64,000 bases of DNA from Frigoribacterium sp. PhB116 (GTDB taxonomy: Bacteria > Actinomycetota > Actinomycetes > Actinomycetales > Microbacteriaceae): positions 868,001 to 932,000 of the forward strand of contig NZ_SOBE01000001.1 of NCBI RefSeq assembly GCF_004364285.1, read 5' to 3'. This document shows, in pieces, positions 30,111 to 31,897 of this stretch (position 1 is its first letter; each line of letters begins with the position of its first letter). Position numbers and translations under genes: made by a program. The notes beneath the pieces were generated by a model. That model saw nothing but the letters and a program-made list of their open reading frames with translations, was not told the DNA's origin and did not search any database.

Positions 30111-30881
30111 TCAGACGAGCCGGAGCACCTGTCCGGCCGCCTCGGCGAGCGCCCGGCCGTAGCTGCGGCCGTGGCCCGCCGCGTGCACCGCGAGCGGGTG
30201 CAGCTGGTGGAGCGGCACGCGGTCGCGCCAGCCGTCCCGGAGGGGCGAGGCGTCCTGGTAGCCGGCCAGCGCCTCCTCGAGGAAGGGGAGGCCGAACAGC
30301 TGCAGCATCGCCAGGTCGGTCTCGGGATGGCCGCCGTGAGCGGCCGGGTCGATCAGGACGACGCCGTCCGCGTCGACCAGGACGTTGCCGCTCCAGAGGT
30401 CGCCGTGCAGGCGGGCCGGCGCCTGGTCGTCGTCGAGCGCTCCCGCGGCGACGAGGTCGCAGGCGCTCTCGACGAGGTCGAGCTCGTCGCGCGTCAGCGA
30501 CCCGGCCTCGACGGCCGTCCGGGCGAACGGCAGCACGCGCTGGGCGGCGTAGAACGCGCCCCAGCTGTCGCGGGGCGTGCACTCCTGCTGCCGTCGGCCG
30601 ATGAAGACGGGGCCGTGCCAGCCGGCAGGAGGCGCCCCGAAGGCGTCCGCGCCGGCCGCGTGGGTGGCGGCGAGCGCCGCGCCGAACCGCCGTGCCGCCT
30701 CCGGCGTCGGGCAGGTCTCGTGCACGGCCCCGAGCGCGATGCGGCCCGGCGAGACCGACTCGACGGACACGATCCTCGAGCCCCCGCCGGGTGTGGCCTC
30801 GGCGAGCCACGCGAGGCCGGCCGCCTCGGCCTCGAAGAAGTCGTCGGGGGCGTCGGCGCGCTGCTTCACGTGCGAGGTCAC
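30111..30881 (-). CDS. fructosamine kinase family protein (APH fold)
   Basis: 256 aa. Belongs to the fructosamine/ketosamine-3-kinase family, which phosphorylates sugars attached to protein amines or free amino acids so the adduct falls apart. Seen: LGAVHETCPTPEAARRFG, the catalytic loop ARLHGDLWSGNVLVDADG with the Brenner-type HGD and Asn, and the Mg-binding VLIDPAAHGGHPETDLAML. Start is a GTG 6 nt after a -10-like CATGCT, so the mRNA is probably leaderless. Divergent from corA with only 17 bp between the start codons. Confidence 0.88.
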   Translation of the reverse strand: MTSHVKQRADAPDDFFEAEAAGLAWLAEATPGGGSRIVSVESVSPGRIALGAVHETCPTPEAARRFGAALAATHAAGADAFGAPPAGWHGPVFIGRRQQECTPRDSWGAFYAAQRVLPFARTAVEAGSLTRDELDLVESACDLVAAGALDDDQAPARLHGDLWSGNVLVDADGVVLIDPAAHGGHPETDLAMLQLFGLPFLEEALAGYQDASPLRDGWRDRVPLHQLHPLAVHAAGHGRSYGRALAEAAGQVLRLV

Positions 30882-30886
30882 GTGGA

Positions 30887-30893
30887 TAGCATG
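30887..30893. promoter_or_regulatory. shared bidirectional -10 (TAGCATG) between fructosamine-kinase and corA genes
   Basis: The plus strand reads TAGCAT (30887-30892), ending 6 nt before the corA ATG at 30899. The minus strand reads CATGCT (30893-30888), ending 6 nt before the GTG at 30881. The geometry is symmetric about base 30890. One 7-bp element appears to drive two leaderless transcripts in opposite directions. Confidence 0.55.
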
Positions 30894-30898
30894 CCCCC

Positions 30899-31897
30899 AT
30901 GACCGAGGCCCCGACCACGACCCGCACCCCGACGCAGACCCGGGCGTACCGGAGCGGGCGGCTCGTGGCGCAGGGGTTCCCCCTCGCCGACGTCAGCGAC
31001 CACCTCGAGACCGAGGGCTGCACGGTGTGGGTCGACCTCACCGACCCGACCGCGGCGGACTTCGACGACCTCGAGGACGAGCTGGGGCTGCACGAGCTCG
31101 CCGTCGAGGACGCCCTGCAGGACGGCCAGCGGCCGAAGGTCGACCGCTACGAGAACCACCTCTTCACGGCGCTCTACGATGTCTCGTTCGACGCGGCGTC
31201 GGGCGAGCTGACGACGAGCGAGGTCAAGGCGTTCCTGACCGCCAAGGCGCTCGTGACCATCCACCACGCCGACTTCGACGTCTCCCGGCTCGAGAAGGCG
31301 TTCGACCAGAGCCCCGACCTCGCGGCTCACGGCGTCTCCTTCTTGCTGTGGGGCGTCCTCGACGTCGTCGTCGACCGCCACTTCGAGGCCGTCGACGCGC
31401 TGGACGACGAGATCGAGGGCATCGCCGACGACCTGTTCGACCCGGCGCCGCGCACCCTCGACGTGCAGAAGCGCTCGTTCGCGCTGCGCAAGAGCCTGGT
31501 GCGGCTGCGGCGCGTCGCCTCTCCGATGCGCGAGGTGCTCAACACGCTGCTGCGCCGCGACCTGCACGACCTCGACCCGGTGATGCAGCCCTACTACCAG
31601 GACGTCTACGACCACGTGGTCCGGGTCGCCGAGCAGAACGACTCGCTCCGCGACCTCGTCTCGACCATCCTCGACACCAACCTCAACCTGCAGTCGAACC
31701 GGATGAACGGGATCATGAAGAAGGTGACGAGCTGGGCGGCGATCATCGCGGTGCCCACCGCCATCACCGGCTTCTACGGCCAGAACGTGCCCTACCCCGG
31801 CTTCAGCACGGTCGGGGGCTTCGTCACCTCGTGCGTGCTCATCGTCGGCGTGGGCGGCGTGCTCTGGTGGCAGTTCCGCAAGCGCGACTGGCTGTAG
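30899..31897 (+). CDS. corA: CorA-family divalent cation transporter with GQN signature
   Basis: 332 aa. A large N-terminal cytoplasmic domain with a long helix (DIEGIADDLF onward region, LRRVASPMREVLNTLL) is followed by two C-terminal membrane helices, as in CorA Mg2+/Co2+ channels. The selectivity loop normally reads YGMN; here it is FYGQNVPYPGF, Met replaced by Gln, which may alter ion choice. The C-terminus ends in basic RKRDWL as usual. Start ATG 30899 lies 6 nt after a -10, with no Shine-Dalgarno. Confidence 0.9.
   Translation: MTEAPTTTRTPTQTRAYRSGRLVAQGFPLADVSDHLETEGCTVWVDLTDPTAADFDDLEDELGLHELAVEDALQDGQRPKVDRYENHLFTALYDVSFDAASGELTTSEVKAFLTAKALVTIHHADFDVSRLEKAFDQSPDLAAHGVSFLLWGVLDVVVDRHFEAVDALDDEIEGIADDLFDPAPRTLDVQKRSFALRKSLVRLRRVASPMREVLNTLLRRDLHDLDPVMQPYYQDVYDHVVRVAEQNDSLRDLVSTILDTNLNLQSNRMNGIMKKVTSWAAIIAVPTAITGFYGQNVPYPGFSTVGGFVTSCVLIVGVGGVLWWQFRKRDWL

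Follow-up and report, generated by a model that had tools for sequence, protein, structure and literature searches.

A compact promoter element probably shared by two divergent, predicted leaderless genes in Frigoribacterium

Bidirectional promoters have been described recently in bacteria, and to our knowledge their evolutionary origin has been little studied. The class is defined by mapped divergent start sites lying 7 to 25 bp apart; a T at position -18 is usual and not required. In the commonest bacterial type, with 18-bp spacing, the -7T and the -11A of the two promoters are reciprocally paired (PMC10268837), and 18 bp is also the commonest spacing between the start sites of bidirectional promoters (PMC12825309). 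The leaderless genes of actinobacteria carry a TANNNT motif some 12 bp upstream of the start codon, with neither a Shine-Dalgarno sequence nor a -35 consensus (PMC3160421; for M. tuberculosis, PMC3898074). These surveys treat genes mostly singly, whereas the Frigoribacterium case reported here is a pair. PMC3898074 describes a divergent pair, prpD and its regulator, in which both mRNAs are leaderless, and reports that closely juxtaposed divergent promoters are common. A pair sharing one -10 element was found in neither of the available parts of PMC3160421 and PMC3898074. The literature searched contained no direct report of leaderless divergent pairs sharing a promoter and no transcription data for Frigoribacterium.

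We analyzed a stretch of 64,000 nucleotides from a genome of Frigoribacterium (Microbacteriaceae), hereafter the window, and coordinates are positions in it unless another locus is named. Between positions 30879 and 30901 the window reads CAC GTGGA TAGCATG CCCCC ATG, and the following features were assigned at and around this site:

30887 to 30893, both strands: TAGCATG, a 7-bp element holding the overlapping -10 elements of both predicted promoters; unchanged in each of the 14 Frigoribacterium genomes carrying both genes
30887 to 30892, plus strand: TAGCAT (TANNNT), predicted -10 element of the corA-like gene, 6 nt before its ATG; at the leaderless spacing peak, and the same element in corA orthologues without an adjoining kinase
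30888 to 30893, minus strand: CATGCT (CANNNT), predicted -10 element of the kinase gene, 6 nt before its GTG; CANNNT or TANNNT at 6 to 7 nt in kinase orthologues, CANNNT over-represented at spacing 6 in the host genome
30882 to 30898, both strands: 17-bp gap between the start codons, without Shine-Dalgarno sequence
30899 to 31897, plus strand: corA-like gene of the CorA superfamily, GQN-motif subgroup, predicted leaderless start at 30899; PF01544, E 2.5e-63; motif YGQN
30111 to 30881, minus strand: fructosamine-kinase family gene, predicted leaderless start at 30881; PF03881, E 9.4e-35; start backed by homologues

The geometry had been pointed out in a sequence-only reading of this DNA, and its coordinates and arithmetic are right: both elements end 6 nt before their start codons and 17 bp separate the latter. 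Its description of the arrangement as fully symmetric overstates the case, since the minus-strand element is CANNNT and not TANNNT. The kinase belongs to its family, with a PF03881 score of 120.7 bits against a gathering cutoff of 22.4. The label of ion channel given to the other product is loose: membership of the CorA superfamily (PF01544) holds, but the protein has GQN instead of GMN and scores 163.5 bits against the CorA equivalog TIGR00383, below the cutoff of 200.75. Classical CorA has YGMN, and a separate YGMN paralogue is also present in Frigoribacterium genomes; the host copy, at L019, is about 31-33% identical. The host corA-like gene itself is 98-99% identical to the copy in the nearest genomes of the same genus.

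Both start codons were chosen also by an independent gene caller based on codon usage, and kinase homologues in other genera start at the same position or within a few codons of it. No Shine-Dalgarno sequence was found close to either start. Within 320 bp upstream, the plus strand contains no TANNNT besides TAGCAT, and the minus strand contains none. Neither promoter has a clear -35 element.

The frequency of such motifs was evaluated in a 344-kb sample of the host genome (the window and another 14 pieces of 20 kb each), in which 290 genes were called by codon usage and 285 starts were scored for spacing. TANNNT ended 6 nt before the start in 25 of these 285 genes and 7 nt before it in seven, while none of the 285 had it at any of 19 control spacings (0-5 and 10-22). 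This spacing peak is the actinobacterial leaderless signal of PMC3160421 and PMC3898074, and with zero matches at the control spacings it shows that the element of the corA-like gene is not there by chance. Defining a leaderless gene by TANNNT 6-7 nt before the start and no Shine-Dalgarno sequence, the corA-like gene qualifies; the kinase gene does not, its CATGCT having a C at position -12. CANNNT was found at spacing 6 in nine cases in this genome where about two were expected (about 4-fold, p about 3e-4), which indicates that C is tolerated at the first position of the -10 element. A search for -35 elements in 32 leaderless promoters gave 4-of-6 matches in 6/32 against 3/128 controls, a weak excess at most.

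The mirror geometry tells less than it appears to. With TANNNT 6 nt before the plus-strand start and a gap of 17 bp, NANNNT is bound to appear 6 nt before the minus-strand start as well. The mirror is thus one coincidence and adds nothing independent in favour of the kinase side, whose case must be made from relatives. The exact arrangement of start codons and A-T positions matched 24 times genome-wide, with genes on both sides at this site only. A reversed control pattern matched 47 times, more than the true pattern, so that the pattern alone carries no signal. Scanning for the variant with an 18-bp gap gave 76 matches in the genome, which by look, without gene-by-gene scoring, are mostly intragenic.

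The locus was then compared in 16 Frigoribacterium genomes. In 14 of them the two genes stand head to head with TAGCATG unchanged. The sequence-only reading had proposed the conservation of the gap as a check: it measures 17 bp in five of these genomes and 18 bp in the other nine, whose additional base lies on the corA side; the kinase spacing is therefore always 6, and the corA-like spacing is 6 or 7. Across the pairs the corA start is kept as ATG and the kinase start as GTG. Within the gap, the invariance of the box relative to its flanks gave p = 0.04, a value that ignores the relatedness of the genomes.

The two remaining genomes each have only one of the genes. Genome G014 has no match to the kinase anywhere, and its element is TAGCATT, with T as base 7: the corA -10 element is kept and the C at kinase position -12 is changed. 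Genome G010 lacks a close corA orthologue, and CAGGCT stands 6 nt before the ATG of its kinase; the plus strand reads CAGCCT there. As read from one genome each, these two cases may reflect reciprocal decay of the unused direction. In G010 (L077) the corA-like gene is missing between the kinase and a downstream sequence, and about 100 bp remain; the downstream sequence begins like the TIM-barrel gene of the window (32030, GTGATCACGGTC). In the single-contig genome G006 (L204, L205), one of the 14 with the head-to-head pair, the kinase matches are split into two parts that overlap, the pattern expected from a frameshift, and TAGCATG is intact.

Other genera of the family show each gene apart. 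Of 27 loci with corA orthologues, mostly without an adjoining kinase, 22 have TANNNT at 6-7 nt from the start, and in 11 it is exactly TAGCAT. Among 33 loci with kinase orthologues, 18 have [TC]ANNNT at 6-7 nt, mostly in the form CAGNNT or TAGCGT; the other 15 lack it at the position tested. The frequent CAGNNT indicates that C at -12 is usual for the kinase gene, and the two counts indicate that each gene tends to have its own leaderless promoter when standing alone. Some corA orthologues without an adjoining kinase likewise have G as base 7, so that G alone is no mark of a kinase promoter.

Two other genera also have the genes head to head; there the gaps measure 43, 49, 64 and 70 bp, and the -10 elements are separate and face each other. 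The kinase element of the 70-bp pair is TTGGAT, which is not [TC]ANNNT, and that of the 43-bp pair stands at spacing 7. The sequence-only reading would have given up a shared element if relatives kept the pair with a much longer gap and separate promoters. Such relatives do exist at the family level; Frigoribacterium itself stays at 17 or 18 bp. The longer gaps therefore do not refute the compact form in this genus and suggest that it is probably a derived feature of Frigoribacterium.

Taken together, the 17-bp gap is probably one bidirectional promoter serving two leaderless genes, which would have merged from two promoters as the gap shortened. The grounds are the genome-wide leaderless statistics, the genus-wide invariance of the element, and the -10 elements that each gene appears to have where the two are not adjacent. 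This remains the best reading, as had been proposed from the sequence alone; the support for its kinase side is weaker than for its corA side. The observations are the geometry with its conservation and the leaderless signal; from them we infer that both genes are transcribed, where each transcript starts and in which order the arrangement arose, as follows. RNA polymerase with the housekeeping sigma factor would bind TAGCATG in either orientation, recognizing TAGCAT as the -10 element in the direction of the corA-like gene and CATGCT in that of the kinase gene. Each transcript would begin with the first base of its start codon, at 30881 and at 30899, which places the predicted start sites 18 bp apart and would make both mRNAs leaderless. 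Two facing, separate leaderless promoters would have been brought together in the Frigoribacterium lineage as the gap shortened, until their -10 elements coincided. An ancestral long gap followed by shortening is the simplest account, its direction being suggested by the comparison of gaps.

The 18-bp promoters of E. coli and Salmonella (Warman, Middlemiss, Grainger; PMC12825309, PMC10268837) share with the Frigoribacterium pair the overlapping -10 elements, the -7T/-11A pairing and the 18-bp spacing. Here the reciprocal base pairs are formed by A30888 and T30892, and they are kept in 14/14 genomes with both genes. The Frigoribacterium pair differs in that its start sites are predicted and coincide with the start codons, and in that -18T is present for the kinase direction only: it is the complement of A30899, the A of the corA ATG, while the corA direction has C30881, from the kinase GTG, at this position. 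Judged on sequence, the site would be a compact and tidy example of the known bidirectional promoters, and a well-supported prediction.

The claim that two polymerases must compete for this DNA is not supported by work in E. coli, where, according to PMC12825309, basal activity at the five bidirectional promoters tested is too low for competition, and interference appears only once one direction is activated. By analogy, competition between polymerases would depend on promoter strength.

The strongest alternative is that only the corA-like gene uses the element. The kinase would then be transcribed, with a leader, from a promoter further upstream, antisense inside the corA coding sequence, and CATGCT would be a by-product of the short gap. 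In its favour, the geometry forces NANNNT on the minus strand, the C at kinase -12 is sub-optimal, and in other genera TAGCAT is the corA gene's own element. However, the upstream minus strand offers no TANNNT over the 320 bp, the kinase GTG has no Shine-Dalgarno sequence, and CANNNT or TANNNT precedes the start by 6-7 nt in kinase orthologues away from corA as well. In addition, it is the kinase spacing that is fixed at 6 in all 14 genomes, and the corA spacing that varies. We consider this alternative unlikely.

The box could instead be conserved mainly as the binding site of a regulator, made of TAGCATG and CACGTG copies, and not as two -10 elements; two CACGTG palindromes (30867-30872 and 30879-30884), 12 bp apart, indeed adjoin it at the kinase start. 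Most genomes of the genus, however, lack CACGTG and read TCGTGTA and CACGGG there, one copy falls within the kinase coding sequence, and TAGCAT recurs in corA orthologues with no CACGTG beside it, which leaves such a role very improbable. The CACGTG repeat as an operator was set aside because most relatives are without it. That the start codons are mis-assigned, with the true starts downstream and the short gap an effect of annotation, is hardly credible: alternative GTG starts are numerous in high-GC genomes and the length of the corA N-terminus varies across the family, but the codon-usage caller chose both starts, the kinase start keeps its aligned position to within a few codons in many genera, and the leaderless spacing falls exactly there genus-wide at a conserved corA ATG and kinase GTG.

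Returning to the shared promoter, bidirectional promoters and leaderless genes are both known, and the interest lies in their combination and in the apparent origin by merging. Relatives appear to keep both the state before the merging, with separate -10 elements and gaps of 43-70 bp, and the state after it, with one element, and the two genomes that each lack one gene show a possible fate of the spare direction. Together, these make it possible to test with single-base changes how a bidirectional promoter arises and decays.

A broader interpretation is offered more tentatively. Ancestrally separate leaderless promoters may have fused into a shared -10 element, so that 23 bp would hold the promoter, the start sites and the start codons, each start codon being part of the other gene's promoter. 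Such merging may be general in leaderless-rich genomes, with a pabB-like/pabC-like pair as a possible second case. The arrangement suggests that in these genomes start codons themselves can be promoter positions, and if the interpretation is true, promoter merging would be a general route to bidirectional promoters in leaderless-rich genomes.

Besides the corA/kinase pair, the pabB/pabC-like pair is the only divergent pair with a gap below 25 bp in the 344 kb, its gap being 11 bp. It lies at L119 13957-16244 (G000:C1:613957-616244) and reads CAT-ACCCTGAGTGT-ATG, the start codons being 11 bp apart and TANNNT standing at 6 nt in both directions. Like corA and the kinase, these are two predicted leaderless genes placed back to back and conserved within the genus. 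Unlike theirs, the two -10 elements do not overlap each other; each overlaps the start codon of the opposite gene. The genome has a single match to the pattern CATANNNTNANNNTATG, and most members of the genus retain the element, with variants.
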